Shown here piece after piece: positions 20,762 through 31,544 of a DNA stretch of 64,000 nucleotides (its first letter is position 1; each line of letters opens with the position of its first letter). The translations under genes were made by a program, and so were the position numbers. Under the pieces are notes generated by a model. It worked only from the letters and a program-made list of their open reading frames with translations. It did no database searches and had not been told where the DNA came from. Source of the DNA: an uncultured Cohaesibacter sp. (GTDB lineage: Bacteria; Pseudomonadota; Alphaproteobacteria; Rhizobiales; Cohaesibacteraceae); contig NZ_OY781091.1 of NCBI RefSeq assembly GCF_963676275.1, forward strand, positions 1,714,775-1,778,774, written 5' to 3'.

Positions 20762-22282
20762 ATGGACAAGAACAATCAATCGGCTCCAGGGAGGAGCGAG
20801 AAGGTGACTGAACCGGAACTGTTTCAGGGCTTTGCAGCCAAAAATCCCTATCTGGCCGATCCGGTGGCAAAGCTGGACCGCAAGCTGGTCGACACGGTTC
20901 AGGAAGCCGTGCGCCGCGTGGGCCTCAAGGATGGCATGACCATTTCCTTCCATCACGCCTATCGTGAGGGTGACAAGGTCATCAATATGGTCGTCGAGAT
21001 TCTGGCCGATATGGGCTTCAGGGATCTGACGCTGGCTTCTTCTTCGCTGGTTTCGGCCAATGCGCCGCTGATCGAGCATATCAGGAATGGCGTGATCCGG
21101 AAAATCTACACCTCCGGCATGCGCGGCAAGCTGGCCGATGCGATTTCCCACGGCCTGATGGATGAGCCGATCACCGTCCATTCCCATGGCGGTCGCTGTG
21201 CGCTCATCGAAACGGGCGAAATCAACATCGACGTTGCCTTCATCGGTGTGTCGGCCTGTGATGCCTATGGCAATGCCAACGGCTTTTCCGGGCGCTCCCG
21301 TTGCGGCTCGCTCGGCTATGCCATGGTGGATGCCCACTTCGCGAAGAATGTCATCATGCTGACCGAGGAAATCGTCGATTATCCGAACGCACCGGCCAGC
21401 ATCCGGCAGGATCAGGTCGACTGGATCGTTCAGGTTGACGAAGTTGGCGATCCGGCCAAGATTTCGGTTGGTGCTGCCCGCGCCACGACCAACCCGCGCG
21501 AATTGCTGATCGCCCGCCTGTCCGCCGAAGTGATGGAATATGGCGGCTATTTCAAGGATGGATTTTCCATGCAGACCGGAACCGGCGGCTCGTCCACGGC
21601 AACGGTGCGCTTTCTTGAAGACCGCATGCGGCATCTCGACATCAAGGCCAAATGGGCACTTGGCGGCCAGACCGGTGGCATGGTCGATCTGCACAACAAG
21701 GGCTTGATCGGCACCTTGCTCGACACCCAGAGCTTTGATGCAGTCGCTGCCCGTTCGCTGGAATCCTCGCCCAATCATGTCGAAATTTCCGCCCATTATT
21801 ATGCCAGCCCGATGTCCAAGGGGGCCGTGGTGGATCGGCTCGACATGGTCATTCTGTCGGCTCTGGAGATCGACCTTGATTTCAACGTCAATGTGCTGAC
21901 CGGTTCTGATGGGGTCATGCGCGGTGCGTCCGGTGGTCATTGCGATACCGCCGCAGGTGCCAAGCTCTCCATCGTTGCTGCACCGCTCATCCGCTCGCGC
22001 ATTCCCACTGTGGTCAAGAATGTCACCACGCGGGTAACGCCGGGTGAGACGGTCGGTGTGCTGGTGACCGATCACGGCATCGCCGTCAATCCGAACCGCC
22101 CTGACGTTGCCGAACGCCTGAAAGCGGCCAATCTGCCGGTCCGTTCCATCGAGGAACTGTATCAGCGGGCCATTTCGATCACCGGTGAACCCAAACCTAT
22201 CGAGTTTCTCGACAAGGTGGTGGGCATCGTGCGCTATCGAGATGGCACAGTGATCGACACCGTCCGTCAGGTCGCCAAATGA
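20762..22282 (+). CDS. citF: CitF: citrate lyase alpha subunit (citrate:acetyl-ACP transferase)
   Basis: 506 residues, the usual length. Family segments include SFHHAYREGDKVINMVV, VHSHGGRCALIETGEI, ACDAYGNANGFSG and TGTGGSSTATVRFLEDRM. It transfers the ACP arm from acetate to citrate, making citryl-ACP for CitE. GGAGCGCGAG precedes the ATG. The stop overlaps the citG start by 4 bases. With CitD and CitE it forms the full lyase complex. Confidence 0.95.
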   Translation: MDKNNQSAPGRSEKVTEPELFQGFAAKNPYLADPVAKLDRKLVDTVQEAVRRVGLKDGMTISFHHAYREGDKVINMVVEILADMGFRDLTLASSSLVSANAPLIEHIRNGVIRKIYTSGMRGKLADAISHGLMDEPITVHSHGGRCALIETGEINIDVAFIGVSACDAYGNANGFSGRSRCGSLGYAMVDAHFAKNVIMLTEEIVDYPNAPASIRQDQVDWIVQVDEVGDPAKISVGAARATTNPRELLIARLSAEVMEYGGYFKDGFSMQTGTGGSSTATVRFLEDRMRHLDIKAKWALGGQTGGMVDLHNKGLIGTLLDTQSFDAVAARSLESSPNHVEISAHYYASPMSKGAVVDRLDMVILSALEIDLDFNVNVLTGSDGVMRGASGGHCDTAAGAKLSIVAAPLIRSRIPTVVKNVTTRVTPGETVGVLVTDHGIAVNPNRPDVAERLKAANLPVRSIEELYQRAISITGEPKPIEFLDKVVGIVRYRDGTVIDTVRQVAK

Positions 22283-23322
22283 CGACAGGGCCTTGCATGG
22301 ATGAGAATGGCAGTGAGGGCAGGAATGAGCCGGAGGCTTCCCGGCCCTCGGCCGATCTGTCTGTCGGGCAGGGGGATGCCTTTCCTTTCCTGCCCGAAGC
22401 GACAGGCTCCGCGCCCGAGAAGCAGGCGCTTGATCGCCTGGAGCCTGCCGCGCAAGCCATCTGGCTTGGCGATCTCGTTCATGAAGCGCTCGTCTGCGAG
22501 GCCACCCTGACGCCAAAGCCCGGGCTGGTCGATGCCAGCAACAGCGGCTCTCACAAGGATATGTCGCTGGCGACTTTCATTGCCAGTGCCAAGGCGCTTC
22601 GCCCGCTTTTTCCCGGCTTCGTCAAGGCCGGGATGCAAGCGGCCGATGATGCTGCCCCCATGGCGCTGCTGCCTCTGCGCAGTCATGGTCTGATCTGCGA
22701 ACAGGCCATGCATGAGGCAACCGGCGGGGTCAATACCCACAAGGGGGGGATTTTCGCCTTTGGCCTGCTGCTCGGTGCCGCCGGTCGCCTGCTTGCGCGT
22801 AAGGATGCGCTCACGGTTTCATCCCTTTGTGGAGAGGCTGCCTCTTTGGTGCAAGGGCTTGTCAAAAGCGAACTGGCTGGCAAGCCGAAAACCGCCAACA
22901 CCGCCGGGGAATATATTTTCCGCCGCTATGGCCTGACCGGTGCAAGGGGAGAGGCCGAAAGCGGCTTTGCTCTGGTGCGCCAATATTCTCTTCCTGCCTT
23001 TCTGGCCGCAAGGCAGGCGGGTCTGGACAGGGAGACCGCACTGCTGGCCGCTTTGCTGGAGCTGCTCATACGCAACCGCGACACAAATCTCGTTGCCCGT
23101 GGAGGCATGGAGGGGCTGTTTTTCGTTCGCAGGGAAGCCCAGCAGCTCAAGCAGTTGGGCGGGGCCTTCGCTCCGGATTTTCTCGCCCGTCTAAGCGCCA
23201 TGGATGAGGCTCTCATCGCCCGCAATCTCAGCCCGGGAGGCAGCGCCGATCTATTGGCCGTGACCCTGTTTCTCTCGCGCATTGACGAAATCGGGCAACC
23301 CGACAGCGGAGAGGCTCCATGA
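22279..23322 (+). CDS. citG: CitG: triphosphoribosyl-dephospho-CoA synthase
   Basis: 347 residues. The core from about residue 58 carries the CitG motifs ATLTPKPGLVDASNSGSHKD, SHGLICEQAMHEATGGVNTHKG and LLELLIRNRDTNLVARGG. It makes the CitD prosthetic group precursor from ATP and dephospho-CoA. Residues 1-57 are a Ser/Pro/Gly-rich extension not expected in the ~290-residue family; translation may instead begin at an internal ATG (for example residue 7), but the ATGA overlap with citF favours the long form. citX follows with another 4-base overlap. Confidence 0.9.
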   Translation: MTTGPCMDENGSEGRNEPEASRPSADLSVGQGDAFPFLPEATGSAPEKQALDRLEPAAQAIWLGDLVHEALVCEATLTPKPGLVDASNSGSHKDMSLATFIASAKALRPLFPGFVKAGMQAADDAAPMALLPLRSHGLICEQAMHEATGGVNTHKGGIFAFGLLLGAAGRLLARKDALTVSSLCGEAASLVQGLVKSELAGKPKTANTAGEYIFRRYGLTGARGEAESGFALVRQYSLPAFLAARQAGLDRETALLAALLELLIRNRDTNLVARGGMEGLFFVRREAQQLKQLGGAFAPDFLARLSAMDEALIARNLSPGGSADLLAVTLFLSRIDEIGQPDSGEAP

Positions 23323-23861
23323 CCGATAGCCGATGGAGCGAGGGGCAGGAGGTGAGCCTTGGGCAAATGCTTGCCGCCAGAGAGATGCGTGTAAGGCGTC
23401 GTCAGGAGGCTCTGGACCGCTATTGCCAGCCCACGATAACGCTTAGCGTCGTCATGCCCGGCGCGGTCAAACTGAGCGCGATGACCAGAGCAATTGCCGC
23501 CGAGGCCAATCGCGCCATCAGCTTAAAACTCCGAGATACTGGCTGGGATTATCGTCAGCTCTGGTCGGCAGAAGAGATTTCCGGGCTGGAAGCACTCTAT
23601 ACGGTGGCATGTCCGCCTGACCAGCTCAAACGGGCGATGGTCGAGTTGGAGGAAGGTCACAAGCTGGGGCGACTTTGGGATCTGGATGTGCATGCCTGCG
23701 ATGGCAAGGGGATTTCCCGCAAGGATCTGGATCTGCCACCGCGTTCTTGCCTTGTCTGCGATGAGCCGGCTCATGCCTGCGCCAGATCACGCGCGCATCA
23801 ACTGACCGAAATTCTCACGGTCATGGAACATACTGTCCGCAGCTTCCGGGGGGATGAATAG
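23319..23861 (+). CDS. citX: CitX: apo-citrate lyase phosphoribosyl-dephospho-CoA transferase
   Basis: 180 residues with LGQMLAAREMRVRRRQ at the N-terminus and HKLGRLWDLDVHACDGKGISR, the GRLWDxDV nucleotidyl-transfer motif. CLVCDEPAHACARSRAH is the conserved C-terminal Cys/His segment. It attaches the triphosphoribosyl-dephospho-CoA made by CitG to Ser14 of CitD. Unlike some enteric operons, where citX and citG are fused, here they are separate, overlapping genes. Confidence 0.93.
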   Translation: MTDSRWSEGQEVSLGQMLAAREMRVRRRQEALDRYCQPTITLSVVMPGAVKLSAMTRAIAAEANRAISLKLRDTGWDYRQLWSAEEISGLEALYTVACPPDQLKRAMVELEEGHKLGRLWDLDVHACDGKGISRKDLDLPPRSCLVCDEPAHACARSRAHQLTEILTVMEHTVRSFRGDE

Positions 23862-23878
23862 CGGAGCGCTCTGGATCA

Positions 23879-23996
23879 GCCGGAGAAAAGTGCCGGAGAA
23901 AAGTGCCGGAGAAAAGTGATTGTGATGGCAATGCGTTATGGAATATCGGCGCGATGCCAGCTTGCCCGGGAGGTGCCCGGGAGGAGCCCGAGAGGT
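23879..23996. repeat. Two adjacent short tandem repeat arrays after citX
   Basis: Three perfect copies of a 13-bp unit (GCCGGAGAAAAGT) occupy 23879-23917. Forty-six bases later, three copies of an 11-bp unit (GCCCGGGAGGT, the second ending in A, the third with one internal change) occupy 23964-23996. Both sit in the 245-base non-coding gap before the hydrolase gene. Neither unit length is a multiple of three. They look like replication-slippage arrays. Confidence 0.8.
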
Positions 23997-24106
23997 GATT
24001 GTACATCAAGCATGAGTTCGATCCCTCAAGCGGGAGTTGAAGATTGGCAGCATTGGGACTAGATTACCGATGCATTATTTGAAACGGTTTTTCATGGAGT
24101 CGCCTT

Positions 24107-24700
24107 TTGATTAGAAAATTGACAGATCCTGAGGTTCTTGCGGCTCTTGAAACACACGCGGAAGAGATCGATTTCATTCTGGTTCCCGGTTTCAAAAATA
24201 GCGGCCCGGAGCATTGGCAGAGCTTCTGGGAGCGGGAGGTCGAGATCTTCCACCGGATCGAACAAAGGCGCTGGGATCAGCGCGATATTGTCCTCTGGAT
24301 CGACGCCATTGGCAGGATGCTGACCAACAGGAAGCGCCCGGCCATTCTCATTGGCCATTCGCTCGGAGCGCTCGCCTCCGCCTGCGTCATCGCCAAGGGC
24401 GAGTTGAATGTGGTGGGCGGCATGTTTGTGGCTCCCGCCGAGCCCATGCGCTTTGCTGTTGAAGAGCGGGTCCCCCGCGACCCTCTGGACATTCCGACAG
24501 TTGTGGTTGCAAGCCACAATGACAAGCTTATTTCCTTTCCGCGCGCCAAGGGACTGGCCGATGACTGGGCGTCCGATTTCATTGATGTGGGAGAGGCCGG
24601 GCACATCAATTCCGAGGCTGGCTTTGGCCGCTGGCCCTATGGCCTGACGATCCTCAAGGATCTTGCCGATCGCATTGTCGCGCAGAAGGGCGATGCCTGA
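24107..24700 (+). CDS. RBBP9/YdeN-family alpha/beta serine hydrolase
   Basis: 197 residues. VPGFKNSGPEHWQSFWE near the N-terminus, the nucleophile elbow GHSLGA (Ser about residue 82) and the C-terminal GHINSEAGFGRWPYG with the catalytic His are typical of the small RBBP9/YdeN hydrolases. Substrate is unknown. The start is a TTG with GGAG 7 bases upstream; an overlapping ATG frame stops at once. Its stop codon TGA directly abuts the reverse-strand stop of the binding-protein gene, so the two convergent genes have no spacer. Any link to citrate use is only positional. Confidence 0.85.
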   Translation: MIRKLTDPEVLAALETHAEEIDFILVPGFKNSGPEHWQSFWEREVEIFHRIEQRRWDQRDIVLWIDAIGRMLTNRKRPAILIGHSLGALASACVIAKGELNVVGGMFVAPAEPMRFAVEERVPRDPLDIPTVVVASHNDKLISFPRAKGLADDWASDFIDVGEAGHINSEAGFGRWPYGLTILKDLADRIVAQKGDA

Positions 24701-25786
24701 TCACTGCTCCTCGGGCTGTTCAAACATATTTTGCCAGACCTCGAGGAAATTCCTCTTTTTCAGCGCATCCTGATAGGTCAATAGCCCAACCCCCATCTTG
24801 ATCGGCAAATAGGCATTGGTGGGGTCCTGCGGCAGATTGAGACGCCGCATATCCGGCGAAATGGGGATCAGCGAGGAAACCTCCGCCATTCTTTCCTGCC
24901 CAGCATCCGACAGCAAAAACTCCATAAAACGCTCAGCCTCACTCTTCTTGACCGAATATTTATAGATAAAGGCGGTGCGCGACATCACGATGGTGTAATC
25001 CTTGAACTGGAAAATGCCCAGATTGGGGTCCTGCGACGCCCGCTCCAGAGCATAGGTGCCTATGACATTATAGCCAAGGATGAGATCGCCGGACGCAACC
25101 GCATCCAATATGGCAGAGGTATAATCATAGGTGCGCATCTTGGCGCGGCTCAGGGATTCGATGACGCGGAAGATCCTGTCGCTCTGGATCGCATCCTGCG
25201 TGAAGAACAGATAACCAGCCCCCGAAGAAACCGCATCATAGGTGCCGACCTTACCTTCGAAAGTGGGAAGGTTGTTGACCAGCAGGTCGGCCAGATCAGC
25301 GTGGGTATTGGGCAGCGGATAGCCCTGAAACAGCTTCTTGTTATAGACCAGCACGATGGGTTCGTAGGTGAAACCGTAAAGCTCGTTGCGCCATTGCGCC
25401 CAGCTTGGGGTCGACCCGGCCCTGTCCTTGCTGAAGGGAGCCGCCAGCCCTTCATTGACCAGCTTGACCTGCAAATCCATAGCCGAACTGATCACCAGAT
25501 CAATGTCTGTGTCGCGCCGGTCACGGGCACTCAGAACATGCTCATACAAGGCGTTGGTCGTGATTTCATGATAGGCAACGGAGATATCCTGATTGGCCTG
25601 CTCGAAGGCGGCAACCAGCCTTTCGAAAGCGCTTGTATCAGTGGTGCCCCAGATATCGAGTTGGGTCTTGTCCTGCGCCGAGGCGTGCCGCACCACGACA
25701 AAGGTCAATAGCAGCGCCAAGGCAAGAAGGGCGATGATCCTGAGCCAGAGAGCTGTCGTGATAGTCCGGTGAGAGAATGGCATCAT
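24701..25786 (-). CDS. Orphan periplasmic binding protein of a two-component operon (FbpA-like)
   Basis: 361 residues with a membrane-targeting N-terminus (IIALLALALLLTFVVVRHASAQ) and the COG1840-type fold (LDIWGTTDTSAFERLVAAFEQ, YEPIVLVYNKKLF). No ABC permease or ATPase is nearby. The gene overlaps the histidine kinase by 4 bases (ATGA), so it is made together with the kinase and I infer that it presents a ligand, perhaps citrate, to the kinase periplasmic domain rather than serving transport. Two start ATGs are adjacent (25786 and 25783). Confidence 0.82.
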   Translation of the reverse strand: MMPFSHRTITTALWLRIIALLALALLLTFVVVRHASAQDKTQLDIWGTTDTSAFERLVAAFEQANQDISVAYHEITTNALYEHVLSARDRRDTDIDLVISSAMDLQVKLVNEGLAAPFSKDRAGSTPSWAQWRNELYGFTYEPIVLVYNKKLFQGYPLPNTHADLADLLVNNLPTFEGKVGTYDAVSSGAGYLFFTQDAIQSDRIFRVIESLSRAKMRTYDYTSAILDAVASGDLILGYNVIGTYALERASQDPNLGIFQFKDYTIVMSRTAFIYKYSVKKSEAERFMEFLLSDAGQERMAEVSSLIPISPDMRRLNLPQDPTNAYLPIKMGVGLLTYQDALKKRNFLEVWQNMFEQPEEQ

Positions 25787-27231
25787 GTCACATCTCCCTG
25801 TTTGTGATTGAATATCATGCGAACGCTCAAGCCGCCCAGTGCAGAGGATGAGAGTTTTAGATAGGCGCCGTGGCTGCGCATGACCTCATCGACAATGCTC
25901 AGGCCAAGCCCGGATCCTTCCGCCGCGCGGTCGGTGCGATAGAAGCGTTCAAGCACTTTCTCGCGTTTGCTTTCGGGAATGCCGGGGCCGGCATCATCCA
26001 CTTGCAGGATGATCTGCCGTCTGATTATGCCGCGCCTCTTGAGGCTCTTCTCATAAAGGGAAATGTCGATCCTGTTGTTGGCTGGCCCGTGCTTGATCGC
26101 ATTGTCAATGACATTGCTGATCGCCTCGCGGATCGAGATGCTGTCTCCGGCGATAAGGTCGGCATCCTCGCCGCCTTCCTCGATTTCCGGCGCTATGGAT
26201 ACGGAGAAATCGATTTTGGATTTCACATGTTCGCGCAGCAGGGTCTGCAGCACAGTGGTCAGCAGGGCTTTCAGATGAATGTCGGAGCTGATCTTCTGGT
26301 CGGCACGGTGAATCACCATGGCGTGAGCCAGCAACTGGTTGGTCAGATGGATCGTCTGGCGGTTCTGTCGTTCGGCCTTCTCGATGCGATTGAGGCGCTC
26401 AATCGGGTCCTGCTCCTTGCTGGCCAGTTCCAGCTGCCCCTGCAAGGCCGAAAGGGCTGTTCTGATCTGGTGGGTCACATCGGCAATGAAGATTTGCGAA
26501 TGATCGAGATTATTCTTCAGTCGCGATATGAAGCCATTGATCGACAGGATCAGGCTGGCCACCTCGCGAGGAGGGGCAACCGGCAACGGCGTGAAATCGG
26601 AAATATCCCGCTGGCGCAAATTCTGCTCGACATCGATCAGCGGGTGGAGCGCCCGGTTGATCGCAATCCAGACAAACAGAAGTCCGACAATCGTGATGAA
26701 GGAGGCCACCGCGAAGCCGCGCCAGAACAGGTCTGCGATCATGTCCTGCCGCGCGATGCATGTCTGCCCGAATTGCACGATCACCCAGAGCGAACGGGTA
26801 TCACCGGTCAGCAGTCGGGCTTGCTGCATGAAGCGAACCGTTTCCCCGCTATAGGCATCATCCCAATAGACAGGGCTTTCGCTGGGCTTGTAATTGGCCG
26901 CCGGAAGCAGATTGTGCGAGGCGGTGATGGTGTCGCCATTCTGAGTGAAAATGCGGTAGAAAACGCGGTCTTCCTTGGCCAGTCCGAGAATTTCGAATGC
27001 GGAATAGGGTATGTCGATGCGCACCTCGCCCGAGGCCATATTGGCGCGCTCCAGAACCGCCAGCGCCGCACCATGCAGCAGCCGGTCATAGGATTCATTG
27101 GCCGCCTGTTGGGCATAGCCCCAAAGGCCGATGCAGATTGCGGTAAGGATCGCCAGAAATCCTGCCCCCATGCCCAGAATGAGGCGGTGGCGGATTGACT
27201 TCTGCGTGATGCGTTTTGAAGATTGTCTCAT
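25783..27231 (-). CDS. TctE-like sensor histidine kinase
   Basis: 482 residues: one span near residue 20, a periplasmic region to about 165 (2CSK_N-like, with YSAFEILGLAKEDRVFYRIF), a second span, a HAMP-like linker, the dimerisation box FIADVTHQIRTALSAL (His254), and a catalytic domain with N box EAISNVIDNAIKHG, G1 VDDAGPGIP and G2 GSGLGLSIV. The residue usually Pro in the H box (HxxRTP) is Ala259 here. Together with the response regulator and the binding protein it forms a tricarboxylate-type sensing system; control of the tct/cit genes is inferred. Confidence 0.92.
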   Translation of the reverse strand: MRQSSKRITQKSIRHRLILGMGAGFLAILTAICIGLWGYAQQAANESYDRLLHGAALAVLERANMASGEVRIDIPYSAFEILGLAKEDRVFYRIFTQNGDTITASHNLLPAANYKPSESPVYWDDAYSGETVRFMQQARLLTGDTRSLWVIVQFGQTCIARQDMIADLFWRGFAVASFITIVGLLFVWIAINRALHPLIDVEQNLRQRDISDFTPLPVAPPREVASLILSINGFISRLKNNLDHSQIFIADVTHQIRTALSALQGQLELASKEQDPIERLNRIEKAERQNRQTIHLTNQLLAHAMVIHRADQKISSDIHLKALLTTVLQTLLREHVKSKIDFSVSIAPEIEEGGEDADLIAGDSISIREAISNVIDNAIKHGPANNRIDISLYEKSLKRRGIIRRQIILQVDDAGPGIPESKREKVLERFYRTDRAAEGSGLGLSIVDEVMRSHGAYLKLSSSALGGLSVRMIFNHKQGDVT

Positions 27232-27261
27232 CCTTGCGCCCTTGCTCGCGCCAAAACAGGC

Positions 27262-27933
27262 TCAGCTTTCATCCATATGCCCGATATAGCCCAGGCCACG
27301 AATGGTCTTGATGAGAAAGGGGGAGCCATCGAGCTTCTTGCGCAGCCGCGTAATCGTCTGTTCAATGGCATTAAGGCTCGGAGTCTCGTCGAAATTATAG
27401 ATCTTGTCGGCAATTTCCTCCTTGGTCAGAACCCGGTCGAGACTGGTCAGGAACAATTCAAGCAATTGCACTTCCTTATTGCGCAATTCGACATCCTTGC
27501 CCTCGACATTGGCCAGCTTGGTGCCCCAGTCGAAGGTGAAATTGCCTGCCGAAAACAGATTGCTGGCAAGACCCGTCTTGCGCCGGGCAAGAGCACGGCA
27601 GCGGGCGATCAATTCGCGGAAGTCGAAGGGTTTGGTCATATAGTCGTCAGCACCGGCGTCCAGCCCGACGACACGATCATCAATCTCCGAGCGCGCGGAG
27701 AGAACGAGTACAGGCGTATCCAACTGCCTTGCCCGGATCGCGCGAAGCAGCTCGAAACCGTTTCGACCCGGCAGATTGATGTCAAGCAGGATCAGATCAA
27801 ACTGCTTGTGGCGCAAGATATAGTCGGCCTGTTCGCCATCGCTTTCATGATCGATGACATGCCCTTCTTTCCTGAAGCGTTCGACGACCGTTTCTGCCAA
27901 CGCCATATTATCTTCGACAAATAAAACCCGCAT
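27262..27933 (-). CDS. OmpR-family response regulator (TctD-like)
   Basis: 223 residues. Receiver domain with acidic pair Glu7/Asp8, phospho-acceptor Asp51 in LILLDINLPG, and the Lys in TKPFDFREL; C-terminal winged helix with LRNKEVQLLELFLTS and ending in FLIKTIRGLGYIGHM. First gene of the leftward operon response regulator-kinase-binding protein. Likely target promoters are tctC (14.8 kb) and possibly citC, both of which carry dyads. Confidence 0.93.
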   Translation of the reverse strand: MRVLFVEDNMALAETVVERFRKEGHVIDHESDGEQADYILRHKQFDLILLDINLPGRNGFELLRAIRARQLDTPVLVLSARSEIDDRVVGLDAGADDYMTKPFDFRELIARCRALARRKTGLASNLFSAGNFTFDWGTKLANVEGKDVELRNKEVQLLELFLTSLDRVLTKEEIADKIYNFDETPSLNAIEQTITRLRKKLDGSPFLIKTIRGLGYIGHMDES

Positions 27934-28262
27934 TGAAAAAGCTGGATCCCAGATCCTCCTCCCGCTGAACAGTGTGAATCCCGCTTTTGTCTGTCCAGTT
28001 CGAGACGAGCTTAGTTTTCTCTCCCGACAGGGTCAATATGACTAGCCTTTGAAAGGATAGTGACTATGGAAAATATTGTTAGGAATCAATGCGCCGTCCA
28101 TTTTTCTGCAAACTATGCTGAAGTCTCGGCCTGAAAGGTAAAAACGCAGCAACAAACACCTGAGATTCAAAGAAAATATTCAACATCCGAGCGTTAAGGC
28201 TAAATTTAGCGGTGATCGTATAATATTGTTTCTGGTTAGTATTTGCATTCCAATGTTGTTTG
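27934..28262. other. Divergent promoter region between response regulator and Amt-GGDEF-EAL genes
   Basis: 329 bases, AT-rich toward the Amt side, with no gene. I looked for a sigma-54 site because ammonium transporters are often nitrogen-regulated; the nearest match (GG at 28234-28235, GC at 28245-28246) is one base too short. I see no ribosome-binding site of strength before the Amt start. Confidence 0.4.
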
Positions 28263-31200
28263 ATGAATATGCGTATTATATTGGTAATTTTTACAGTGTT
28301 GCTCTTGCCTCTATTCTTGCCGGACCGCGCCTATGCGACCGATCTGGCCGGGTTGGAAGCAAATATTGATCTGACATGGGTGATGGCCGCCGCAGCGCTG
28401 GTCATGTTCATGCAAGCCGGTTTCCTCATGCTTGAAGCCGGGATGGTGCGCTCCAAGAACTCCATCAATGTCGCCCAGAAGAATCTGCTTGATTTCGTCT
28501 TTTCCGTCGCCGCCTTCACCGTGATCGGCTTCATGTTCGCCTTTGGCCGGTCTTTTGGCTTTATCGGGCTGGACTGGCGCTATTTCGGTCTGCAACATAT
28601 CACCTCTCATGAGGCCGGATTCTTTGTCTTTCAGGTGATGTTCTGCGGTACCGCAGCCACGATTGTATCGGGTGCGATTGCCGAGCGTATTCGTCTGTCA
28701 TCCTATGTTGTCACCTCGATTTTCCTGTCTGCAATCATCTTCCCCCTGTTTGCCCATTGGGCTTGGGGCAATGCCCTGCAACATAATGACAGCGCCTTTC
28801 TGGCCAATATGGGCTTTATCGATTTTGCTGGCTCCTCTGTCGTGCATGGCACTGGTGGCTGGGTGGCGCTGGCTGGCTGCATGCTGCTTGGCCCCCGTGA
28901 TGGCCGCTTTACCGAAAGCGGAAAGCCCATAAGGCTGGCCGGGCACAGCCCGGTTCTGGCGACCACGGGCGGTCTTCTACTTTTTATCGGCTGGCTGGGT
29001 TTCAATGGCGGTTCAACGCTGAAGGCAGACGAGAGCGTCGCTTTCATCATTCTCAATACGGTTCTGGCCGGAGGCTTCGGCACGGTGGCCGGCTTTCTCC
29101 TTGGCTATTATCAGGATGGACATTATCTGCCCGAGAAATCGCTTGCTGGCCTGATTGGCGGGCTTGTCGCGGTGACGGCTGGCTGCTCGGTTCTGACCCC
29201 GCTTGGCTCCATTGTCATTGGCGCTGTTGGCGGTTGTCTGGCGGTTTATGCCAATACGATATTGGAGGAGAGGTTCAAGATCGATGACGCCGTCGGAGCG
29301 ATCGGGGCTCATGGGGTTGCCGGTGTCGCCGGCACAATCGGGCTGGCCTTTCTTGCGCCTGCGGATGCCTTTGAAATGGGGCGATCCGATCAGATTCTGA
29401 TCCAGACCTATGGGGCAGGGCTCAACTTCATTCTCAGCTTCGGGCTGGGTTTTCTCTGCTTCTGGGTTTTGAAGCGCTTCTTCCGGCTGCGTGCCAGCCC
29501 CGAAGAAGAACTGGTCGGCCTGAATATTGCCGAGCATGCGACCCGTATTGGCGTGGGCCATGTCGAAGATGCCATGGAAAAGCTGCTCTCTGGTCAGAGT
29601 GGTTTCTCGCAAAGGCTGCCAAGCGTTGCAGGTGACGAGGCGGAGAATCTGACCGACCTGTTCAACCAGCTGATGGGCAATCTGGAAACAGAGCACAGAA
29701 AGCTCAGCGAACTGGAATTGCTCAAGGCACAGGCAGAGGAAGCCGAACGCATCGAAGCTCTGTCCAAGGCCACCTTTGAAGGCATTGCCATTCATCAAAA
29801 TGGAGTGGTAATCGATGGCAATCCGCAGATCGCCGAACTGCTGGAATATCATCTGGATGAAGTCATCGGCAGGCCGATCCTGCAATTTGCCGATGCGCGC
29901 CATCATGGCCGTATCGAACGGGCAATCTCGGAACAATGTGCCGATCCTTATGAGGCGGTTTTGCTTTCCAAGTCCGGCGAGCAGATTCCCGTTGCCATTC
30001 GCGGGCGCAACATCAATTACAAAGGCAAGGAAGTGCGCATTTCCTGCTTTGTTGATCTCAGGGAGCGCAAGGCCGCCGAAGAACATATTCGCCTCATGGC
30101 CCAGCATGACGCGCTGACAGGCCTTGCCAATCGCTCACTCTTCAACTCGCAGCTGGAAAATGCCGTGCGCACGGCAACGCCGCAAAGGGTTGTCGCGCTG
30201 CTGCTGATTGATCTAGACCGCTTCAAGAATGTCAATGACGTTTACGGCCATCAGGCTGGCGACATTGTCATCCGAGAAACGGCAGCACGGCTCAATGCCA
30301 TCGCCGGGGTCAATGACACCGTTGCCCGTCTTGGTGGCGACGAATTCGCGATCATCCAGCGCAATCTGATGTTCACCAATCAGGCGGCGGACACCGGTCA
30401 CCGGATCATCAATGCGCTGTCCCGCCCGATCCAGATTGATGACAAGAAGTCCGTGTTGATTGGAGCCAGTGTTGGCATCTCCCTGAGCCCGGAACATGCC
30501 AAGGATGCTGAAACCCTGTTCTCCCGCGCCGACATTGCCCTTTATCATTCCAAGAATACCGGGCGCAACATGTCGAATATCTATCGCTCGGGCCTAAACA
30601 AGCTGATGGAAAAGCGGCGGGCGCTTCAGGCCAGCCTCGAAAAGGCGTTGGTCAATGATGAGCTTGAGCTTTATTACCAGCCGCGCATCGACGCCAAGTC
30701 CCTTGAAATCAGCTCCTATGAAGCCCTGCTGCGCTGGAACCATCCCCAGAGGGGCATTGTGAGCCCCGGCGAATTCATTCCCGTTGCCGAGGCCAGCGGA
30801 TTGATTGTCGAGATCGATAAATGGGTCTTCAACAGGGCCTGCATGGATGTTGCCCAAGGGGCGATTGGCAAACCGATCAGCATCAATGTCAGCCCGCTCG
30901 GATTCCAGCAGCGTGATTTCGTCAGAAAGATCGAGCAGATCCTGAAGGAAACGGGCACCGACCCGGCCCAGATCGAGCTGGAACTGACAGAGAGCATGCT
31001 GATCGAGGATGACGAACGTGGTCTGGCCATTTTGAAGCAGCTCAAGCGGCTCGGCCTGTCTCTGGCTCTGGACGATTTCGGAACCGGTTACTCGTCTCTG
31101 TCCTACCTGTCCAAATATCCCTTTGACACCATCAAGATTGATCGCAATTTCGTTGTCGCTCTCAGTCAGGAGAAGAGTGCGGTTGCCATCATGAAAGTCA

Positions 31201-31544
31201 TTATCGGGCTGGGCAAGGGGCTTGGCATGGATATCGTCGCCGAGGGCGTCGAGACCGTGGAGGAAGCGGCCTTCTTGCGGGAAAATGACTGTGATCAGCT
31301 GCAAGGTTATCTCGTCAGTCGTCCCTTGCCGGTAAGCGAGATCCTGCGCGAAGTGCCATATGATGTCCGCGCCGCTATCCTTAGCCAGAAACCCGACATG
31401 GAAGCCAATCAGCAGGTTTCCAGTCTGCGGTCAGTCTATCGCGAAGATGCTACACGCCCGGAAGATTTGGCTGACGAACAGGTGGAGAGTCTGGCAGAAG
31501 ACCAGCAAGCGGGGGCAAGTCAGTGCGATGGCAAAAGGGCATAA
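28263..31544 (+). CDS. Ammonium transporter fused to PAS-GGDEF-EAL (ammonium-linked cyclic-di-GMP enzyme)
   Basis: 1093 residues. Signal-like N-terminus (to about 26), then a complete Amt domain (about 28-430) with twin pore histidines in SSVVHGTGG (His195) and GAIGAHGVAG (His350), IGWLGFNGGS and the AERIRL segment. A helical linker (430-495) leads to a PAS domain (about 497-610), a GGDEF domain with intact GGDEF at 691-695 (no Arg in the RxxD inhibitory site; it reads GVND), and an EAL domain with EALLRW (Glu820), ELTESMLIED, DDFGTGYSS, IKIDRNF and AEGVET. Both cyclic-di-GMP synthase and phosphodiesterase residues are kept. I infer that external ammonium tunes cyclic-di-GMP. A ~60-residue acidic tail follows the EAL domain. 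Confidence 0.95.
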   Translation: MNMRIILVIFTVLLLPLFLPDRAYATDLAGLEANIDLTWVMAAAALVMFMQAGFLMLEAGMVRSKNSINVAQKNLLDFVFSVAAFTVIGFMFAFGRSFGFIGLDWRYFGLQHITSHEAGFFVFQVMFCGTAATIVSGAIAERIRLSSYVVTSIFLSAIIFPLFAHWAWGNALQHNDSAFLANMGFIDFAGSSVVHGTGGWVALAGCMLLGPRDGRFTESGKPIRLAGHSPVLATTGGLLLFIGWLGFNGGSTLKADESVAFIILNTVLAGGFGTVAGFLLGYYQDGHYLPEKSLAGLIGGLVAVTAGCSVLTPLGSIVIGAVGGCLAVYANTILEERFKIDDAVGAIGAHGVAGVAGTIGLAFLAPADAFEMGRSDQILIQTYGAGLNFILSFGLGFLCFWVLKRFFRLRASPEEELVGLNIAEHATRIGVGHVEDAMEKLLSGQSGFSQRLPSVAGDEAENLTDLFNQLMGNLETEHRKLSELELLKAQAEEAERIEALSKATFEGIAIHQNGVVIDGNPQIAELLEYHLDEVIGRPILQFADARHHGRIERAISEQCADPYEAVLLSKSGEQIPVAIRGRNINYKGKEVRISCFVDLRERKAAEEHIRLMAQHDALTGLANRSLFNSQLENAVRTATPQRVVALLLIDLDRFKNVNDVYGHQAGDIVIRETAARLNAIAGVNDTVARLGGDEFAIIQRNLMFTNQAADTGHRIINALSRPIQIDDKKSVLIGASVGISLSPEHAKDAETLFSRADIALYHSKNTGRNMSNIYRSGLNKLMEKRRALQASLEKALVNDELELYYQPRIDAKSLEISSYEALLRWNHPQRGIVSPGEFIPVAEASGLIVEIDKWVFNRACMDVAQGAIGKPISINVSPLGFQQRDFVRKIEQILKETGTDPAQIELELTESMLIEDDERGLAILKQLKRLGLSLALDDFGTGYSSLSYLSKYPFDTIKIDRNFVVALSQEKSAVAIMKVIIGLGKGLGMDIVAEGVETVEEAAFLRENDCDQLQGYLVSRPLPVSEILREVPYDVRAAILSQKPDMEANQQVSSLRSVYREDATRPEDLADEQVESLAEDQQAGASQCDGKRA

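Follow-up and report, generated by a model that had tools for sequence, protein, structure and literature searches.

A fusion of an ammonium transporter domain with GGDEF and EAL domains in Cohaesibacter: a probable membrane ammonium receptor setting cyclic-di-GMP turnover

Does an ammonium transporter (Amt) domain that is joined to both a synthase and a phosphodiesterase of cyclic-di-GMP supply the cell with nitrogen, or does it act as a sensor? The question is raised by a gene in 64,000 nucleotides of DNA from an uncultured Cohaesibacter sp. (contig NZ_OY781091.1, positions 1,714,775 to 1,778,774), a stretch that was analysed as a whole and is called here the window. The open reading frame (ORF), at 28263-31544 on the forward strand, is uninterrupted, with an ATG start, 1093 codons and a stop. 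A first-pass annotation, made from the sequence alone, had proposed Amt, PAS, GGDEF and EAL domains in this single frame, and this was borne out, since Amt, PAS_9, GGDEF and EAL all score above their Pfam cut-offs in the protein; the inventory was right for these four domains but overlooked a HAMP-like segment between Amt and PAS. That the Amt part would be an ammonium sensor and not a nitrogen supplier, as the annotation had also suggested, is well supported by sequence comparison, because the domain has the residues of a two-ammonium site, belongs to a clade of fused Amts that includes the two proven sensors, and lacks an adjoining GlnK gene. A link from ammonium to cyclic-di-GMP is likely in this protein, and we consider it fairly probable that the protein as a whole is a membrane ammonium receptor which sets cyclic-di-GMP turnover. 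The gene and its parts are as follows.

28263..31544, forward strand: whole gene, encoding a protein of 1093 residues read as Amt-HAMP-PAS-GGDEF-EAL (ORF, Pfam, full-length orthologs)
28263..28340, forward strand: N-terminal hydrophobic leader, residues about 1-26, putatively a signal peptide or an additional helix (judged from the sequence alone)
28377..29543, forward strand: Amt domain, residues 39-427 (PF00909, E = 7e-102; alignments with PDB 8qj3 and 6eu6)
28413..28670, forward strand: equivalents of the two-ammonium site, Q51, E58, N74, D77, F78, T133 and S136 (alignment; PMC5764959)
28764..29312, forward strand: pore landmarks W168, H195, F247, S251 and H350 (alignment; F127 of the Phe gate lies just upstream, at 28641)
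29559..29687, forward strand: HAMP-like relay, residues 433-475 (GDEAENLTDLFNQLM; best Pfam match of the linker, E = 0.012, below cut-off)
29781..30065, forward strand: PAS domain, residues 507-601 (PAS_9, E = 7e-11)
30099..30569, forward strand: GGDEF domain, residues 613-769, with its motif at 30333-30347 and the Arg of the product-inhibition site (I-site) absent (Pfam E = 2e-42; alignment)
30630..31325, forward strand: EAL domain, residues 790-1021, with EAL at 30720-30728 and DDFGTG from 31071 (Pfam E = 1e-72; alignment)

The Amt domain and its two-ammonium site

In alignment, the Amt domain has the Phe gate (F127/F247), W168, S251 and the His pair (H195/H350), so the full pore with both histidines that had been claimed is present, and no key pore or catalytic residue is lost. 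Ks-Amt5 of Kuenenia stuttgartiensis (PDB 6eu6; PMC5764959) is an ammonium receptor which binds two ammonium ions via Q24, E31, N47, D50, T51, T109 and T112, signals to its fused kinase without efficient ion translocation, and has a phosphorylation that responds to ammonium in the full-length protein but not in the isolated kinase. Five of these seven residues are identical in the window protein, T112 being replaced by S136 and T51 by F78. The two proteins also share the pore landmarks and the absence of an adjoining glnK, but the output of Ks-Amt5 is a histidine kinase, without HAMP or PAS, and its pore is blocked by F27, Y30 and F34, of which the window protein retains F27 alone. The first-pass annotation had suggested a sign that could depend on ammonium flux; a sensor would not require flux, since Ks-Amt5 signals without efficient transport (PMC5764959).

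With 8qj3, a solved Amt-GGDEF protein whose alignment with ours covers both domains, all seven site positions are identical. This entry, like 8qj4 and 8qpf, we take to be Sd-Amt1 of Shewanella denitrificans from Pfluger et al. 2024, in which ammonium binding reportedly makes HAMP pairs bring the GGDEF domains together, the HAMP being said to lie between Amt and GGDEF, where the window protein has its HAMP-like segment. Sd-Amt1 differs in that its chains of 644-661 residues give no match to our EAL part, and in that its Amt groups with kinase-type fusions and those of other classes, outside the clade of the window protein.

The five-residue set Q24-E31-N47-D50-T109 (Ks-Amt5 numbering) occurs in full in 63 of the 64 fused Amts versus one of 60 Amts from a draw of the family, which covered 57 genomes of the class (own included) and 77 places. 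The 17 unfetched places are four in the window's own genome, four long fused frames, six others (mostly low-scoring) and three fragments, and three of the 60 fetched Amts exceed 600 residues (L173, which ends with the Amt domain, L204 and L210). Six frames of the draw have at least 700 residues, and four of the five that were read carry the set. So do 16 of the 17 further fused rows with a readable site from a sample of the phylum (398 genomes, own included), in which L286 is cut upstream of the site. In the class sampled, this residue signature would largely mark the receptor-type Amt clade.

Several observations weigh against the sensor reading. The count of 63 in 64 is biased, because similarity to the window protein was the basis for collecting the fused rows, many of which are closely related; the exception among the five long frames of the draw is the pore-dead L004, and L270, a GGDEF-EAL fusion of another class, is without two of the five residues. 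Among 25 non-fused rows, which include stand-alone Amts from other phyla, 17 also have the set (two of the 17 are cut or frame-broken fusions, and the 25, mostly from search patterns that included the Gln of the site, are themselves a biased set). The site is therefore no proof of sensing, for which it looks necessary but insufficient. Y30 and F34 of Ks-Amt5 correspond to L57 and M61 in the window Amt, and since these bulky blockers are not retained, conduction of ammonium is possible. Finally, HAMP is the top Pfam match of the linker 433-475, at E = 0.012, under the cut-off. Uniqueness of the two-ammonium residues to fused Amts, a candidate considered here, was rejected on the same 17 of 25 non-fused rows.

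The clade was defined in a tree of 88 Amt domains (30 of the 64 fused rows, 16 rows from the phylum sample and 42 at first classed as stand-alone; L004 was not included, and L118 and L174 represent one gene), made by a quick IQ-TREE run with Shimodaira-Hasegawa-like approximate likelihood ratio (SH-aLRT) supports only and no bootstrap. One branch (SH-aLRT 96) divides 48 fused rows from 40 stand-alone rows, and both proven sensors, Ks-Amt5 and Sd-Amt1 (8qj3), are among the 48. The 48 include two seemingly stand-alone rows: L020, at a contig end, and L009, with a chemoreceptor part in the next frame. Pfam was used to verify some of the output labels on the tree, and three rows were left as 'other'. 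L104, L113, L120, L122 and L124 were labelled kinase, and L133 chemoreceptor, from their length, a motif or their relatives, and several GGDEF-EAL rows got their label from phmmer or blastp comparison to the window protein.

The genome, a single contig of 5.03 Mb, has four Amt matches: the fusion, the amtB gene L002, a second stand-alone gene (L003) and L004, a divergent fusion with an ATPase-type domain. Its two PII matches, one directly before the stand-alone amtB L002 (4.81 Mb) and one at 2.78 Mb, are both outside the window, in agreement with the earlier remark that no GlnK gene is adjacent. The AmtB-GlnK assimilatory pattern is thus not fitted by the fusion gene, which has a fused output domain and no adjoining glnK or glnB.

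Of the 18 genomes of the genus, own included, 14 have a full-length copy of the gene. Outside the genus such copies occur in G040 and G792, which represent two further families of the order, and Rhizobium sp. L1K21 has one at 63% identity; the nearest relatives with a name are Cohaesibacter marisflavi (82%) and C. celericrescens (67%). No copy was found in four genomes of the genus, G005 (64% complete), G009, G011 and G017. Over the folded domains, the pairwise ratio of non-synonymous to synonymous substitution rates (dN/dS) with the window gene is about 0.05-0.41 where computable, the silent sites being near saturation, and conservation is poor in the C-terminal tail (13-38% identity across ortholog comparisons).

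Output domains, predicted mechanism and competing readings

Catalytic residues were followed in 16 aligned sequences, the window protein and 15 orthologs (52-82% identical to it; L269 was excluded). In the window protein the GGDEF motif is at residues 691-695, EAL at 820-822 and DDFGTG from 937, with the Lys and Glu ligands retained. All 16 have an intact GGDEF motif with its metal-binding Asp, the Glu of EAL (within EVL in three sequences), DDFG, the catalytic Lys and EGVE, so the GGDEF and EAL domains described as intact are indeed so, and both enzyme domains appear competent. L269 retains all 15 catalytic positions checked, with ETL instead of EAL. The Arg of the RxxD product-inhibition site, also called missing by the annotation, is replaced in the window protein (GVND) and absent from all 16 sequences.

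The best NCBI family for residues 482-1027 is the phosphodiesterase DibA, far under its cut-off, and the nearest solved structures for the GGDEF-EAL part are 5m3c ('diguanylate cyclase') and 4rnh ('motility regulator'), presumably MucR and MorA. Both structures are tandem GGDEF-EAL pairs with the same motifs and align with our protein along the entire pair, but they have no Amt; proteins of the MucR and MorA type have other sensory parts.

In the linker, the motif GDEAE.L..LFN.L is present in all 16 aligned sequences. HAMP was matched in the ortholog L168, from another family, at E = 4e-4, also under the cut-off, and was not among the Pfam matches of the ortholog L269; it scores above the cut-off in three related Amt-chemoreceptor (MCP) proteins, L014, L099 and L127. 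On the match in the linker, its conserved motif and the HAMP domains of the Amt-MCP proteins, we read the order as Amt-HAMP-PAS-GGDEF-EAL.

We propose that external ammonium would be selected at the vestibule of the Amt (W168/S251) and would bind the two-ion site within it (Q51, E58, N74, D77, T133 and S136, placed by alignment). By analogy with Ks-Amt5, and with what is reported of Sd-Amt1, a change in the Amt trimer would pass through the C-terminal helix to the HAMP-like segment and PAS, and these may alter the pairing of GGDEF-EAL and hence the balance between synthesis and breakdown. In the absence of ammonium, net breakdown would be expected to dominate because of the likeness to the phosphodiesterase DibA and to 5m3c and 4rnh; in its presence, ammonium-driven pairing of the GGDEF domains would give relatively more synthesis, by analogy with the mechanism reported for Sd-Amt1. 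The sign of the response to ammonium is a guess that could fall either way. Motility and attachment would be the likely outputs, and the bacterium probably senses ammonium directly and adjusts motility or biofilm.

Four other readings were weighed against a receptor setting cyclic-di-GMP turnover. The one that survives best, although we hold it to be doubtful, is a two-way switch, in which the ammonium state together with a PAS ligand would decide between net synthase and net phosphodiesterase action. It agrees with the two active sites intact in 16 of 16 sequences, with the missing I-site Arg, without which the synthase is free of its usual product inhibition, and with the PAS-matching region found in the orthologs examined. 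However, PAS is the folded domain of lowest identity in 14 of the 15 pairwise comparisons to the window protein and ties in the other (PAS 35-81%, Amt 61-85%), which does not suggest a fixed PAS ligand, and domain scans of the window protein brought up only generic PAS-fold models, with no ligand-binding subtype identified. The rheostat put forward at first reading, whose sign could depend on ammonium and on a second PAS ligand, found no support here. Moreover, intact motifs do not keep many GGDEF-EAL proteins from working mostly in one direction.

Somewhat less probable still, and in our view unlikely, is a transceptor, whose Amt still imports ammonium while the fused enzymes report the transport flux. 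The complete pore, with its His pair, Phe gate and selectivity residues, and the replacement of the Ks-Amt5 blockers Y30 and F34 by Leu and Met would permit this; but for uptake the genome encodes two stand-alone Amts, one of which sits next to a PII gene, no PII gene adjoins the fusion gene, and site and clade are those of Ks-Amt5, an inefficient translocator (PMC5764959).

The Amt could also be an ordinary transporter whose fused tail gates the channel from inside, on cyclic-di-GMP or PAS signals. Amt proteins are known to be gated at their cytoplasmic face by PII, and the domain order would allow it, but kinase, chemoreceptor, GGDEF and GGDEF-EAL fusions form one clade with two proven receptors, and catalytic residues kept in 16 of 16 sequences would be needless for a mere gate, so we regard this reading as very improbable. 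A chance or broken fusion, by read-through of two genes or with decaying enzyme parts, is hardly conceivable. Nothing in the analysis spoke for it, full-length copies occur in 14 of 18 genomes of the genus, as well as in two other families and Rhizobium sp. L1K21, and the folded domains show a low dN/dS, although their silent sites are close to saturation.

Spread and origin of the Amt fusions

The joining of Amt to both a synthase and a phosphodiesterase is not singular: Amt, GGDEF and EAL occur in a single frame in 15 of the 397 genomes of the phylum sample other than the window's (L286 is cut by a contig end), so the combination is a recurring one. An Amt like that of the window (E of 1e-60 or better) was found in 31 of the 398 genomes, of which 18 places were fetched, a frame of 770 residues in G525 remaining unfetched. 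Pfam scans of eight of the 15 Amt-GGDEF-EAL proteins showed between one and three PAS domains in each, and 14 of the 15 proteins retain all 15 catalytic positions that were checked, L270 being without two EAL positions.

The Amt-PAS(n)-GGDEF-EAL proteins of other classes (L270-L282, L286) share with ours the output domains and their order. They differ by their PAS number (1-3 in seven scanned), by the RxxD Arg, kept in most of them and missing in the clade of the window protein, and by Amts that lie on a separate branch, which argues for an independent joining of GGDEF-EAL. Indeed, these rows and 8qj3 group with kinase rows (support 99), and the clade of the window protein joins Amt-MCP rows from the same class as itself (support 100; 13 rows, L013 and L285 among them). 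On this tree, GGDEF-EAL was joined to the predicted sensor Amts at least twice. A single origin of the cyclic-di-GMP outputs was rejected by approximately unbiased (AU) tests, with p = 1.45e-36 for the 88 Amts and 0.0017 for a smaller tree; the long rows L013, L051 and L285 are unsurely placed, and the tests are to be taken with caution.

The Amt-HAMP-MCP proteins (L008, L010-L012, L014, L098, L099, L127) have HAMP, where detected, in the same position, and the Amts of those members that belong to the class are the closest to the clade of the window protein; a chemoreceptor signalling domain replaces PAS-GGDEF-EAL. Frames of this architecture were seen in the genus (L127, L128, L133, L146-L150) and in Oceanospirillum, Nitrincola and an Alteromonadaceae (L008, L010-L012, L014). 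A frame of this type (828-837 residues) is present in 8 of the 18 genomes of the genus, one having been scanned with Pfam and the others assigned by motif; in this search of the 18 genomes it was absent from the window's own. These proteins are likely to be ammonium chemoreceptors.

Amt receptors with a kinase (2018) or with GGDEF (2024 structure) are already known, and the window protein varies this theme by carrying both enzymes. In a partial literature search we found no description of an Amt protein with an EAL domain, and the passages of PMC2907700 and PMC2330054 that came up in it do not concern a fusion.

More tentatively, one may imagine that an Amt became a receptor module once, before its outputs diversified, and that kinase, chemoreceptor, GGDEF and GGDEF-EAL outputs have been swapped since, cyclic-di-GMP outputs having joined at least two times. 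The window protein would then be a two-way ammonium switch derived from an Amt-HAMP chemoreceptor whose signalling tip was replaced by PAS-GGDEF-EAL, a scenario we think possible but doubtful. If it were true, the sign of the cyclic-di-GMP change, hence swimming or settling, would follow external ammonium. If the receptor reading is right, this marine bacterium would feed external ammonium straight into its chief lifestyle messenger, with neither PII nor a two-component relay in between. The receptor-type clade and its residue signature could help to separate ammonium receptors from importers, which general family models name alike, and two enzyme activities under one likely ligand would offer a clean case of how GGDEF-EAL hybrids choose their sign.

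Other arrangements of the same parts were noticed. In L009 (5848-8120) and L284, Amt and output (chemoreceptor and GGDEF-EAL, respectively) are in two overlapping frames, by an assembly frameshift or a real split. L016, L022, L027, L032, L048, L055 and L063, mostly Desulfovibrio-type, have a stand-alone Amt with the receptor-type site followed about 0.3-0.5 kb on by an EAL frame, possibly a two-gene version of the same link. In L018, L019 and L023 (Solirubrobacter/Conexibacter), a GGDEF-EAL frame overlaps the start of the Amt frame on the same strand.

Genome and locus context

Cyclic-di-GMP signalling is well developed in this genome, as judged from its 18 EAL matches and three PilZ matches (in two frames). 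The genes around the fusion in the window, for a response regulator, a kinase, a binding protein and citrate lyase, together with tamB and tamA, are oriented away from it or against it and are uninformative. This gene order (citrate lyase; binding protein, histidine kinase and response regulator; Tam genes) is retained in 8 of 15 orthologous loci and missing in 7. A constant gene partner was rejected, as none is common to all seven loci without that order, the matches common to four or five of them being reverse-strand frames within the fusion gene itself. In two of these seven relatives, G006 and G016, the fusion gene is tail-to-tail with a flagellar cluster: the adjoining gene in G016 matches flagellin models, and in G006 the homolog of the adjoining gene has no Pfam match, flgE and flgD lying a few kb beyond. 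These flagellar neighbours make motility a plausible target.

One further feature lies upstream of the gene.

27934..28262, no strand assigned: intergenic stretch between the divergent response-regulator gene and the fusion gene (no sigma-54-type site above shuffled expectation)

A nitrogen-control promoter was rejected for the window gene and the 15 orthologs, since no sigma-54-type site was clearly above the 200 single-base shuffles made for each upstream region; the best, in L162, has 9 of 11 matches and was equalled in 5.5% of shuffles. Scans of the window with Rfam (gathering threshold) and for tRNA gave no matches. At 20762-27933 of the window, the citrate lyase genes citF, citG and citX stand beside a set of binding-protein, sensor-kinase and response-regulator genes on the other strand, perhaps a regulator of a carbon source.

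Finally, L004 of the same genome (1456-3639 of that locus; C1:1130235-1132418) is a fused Amt without both His, the Trp and the Phe gate, and its C-terminus carries an ATPase-type domain at 25 bits, against a Pfam cut-off of 26.4. Amts of this type, in frames of 728-759 residues, occur in 17 of the 18 genomes of the genus; the best matches outside it, among 190 genomes of the class, have 25-31% identity and are mainly fused Amts, of the kinase type where scanned. L004 looks like a pore-dead Amt that was converted to a pure signalling part.

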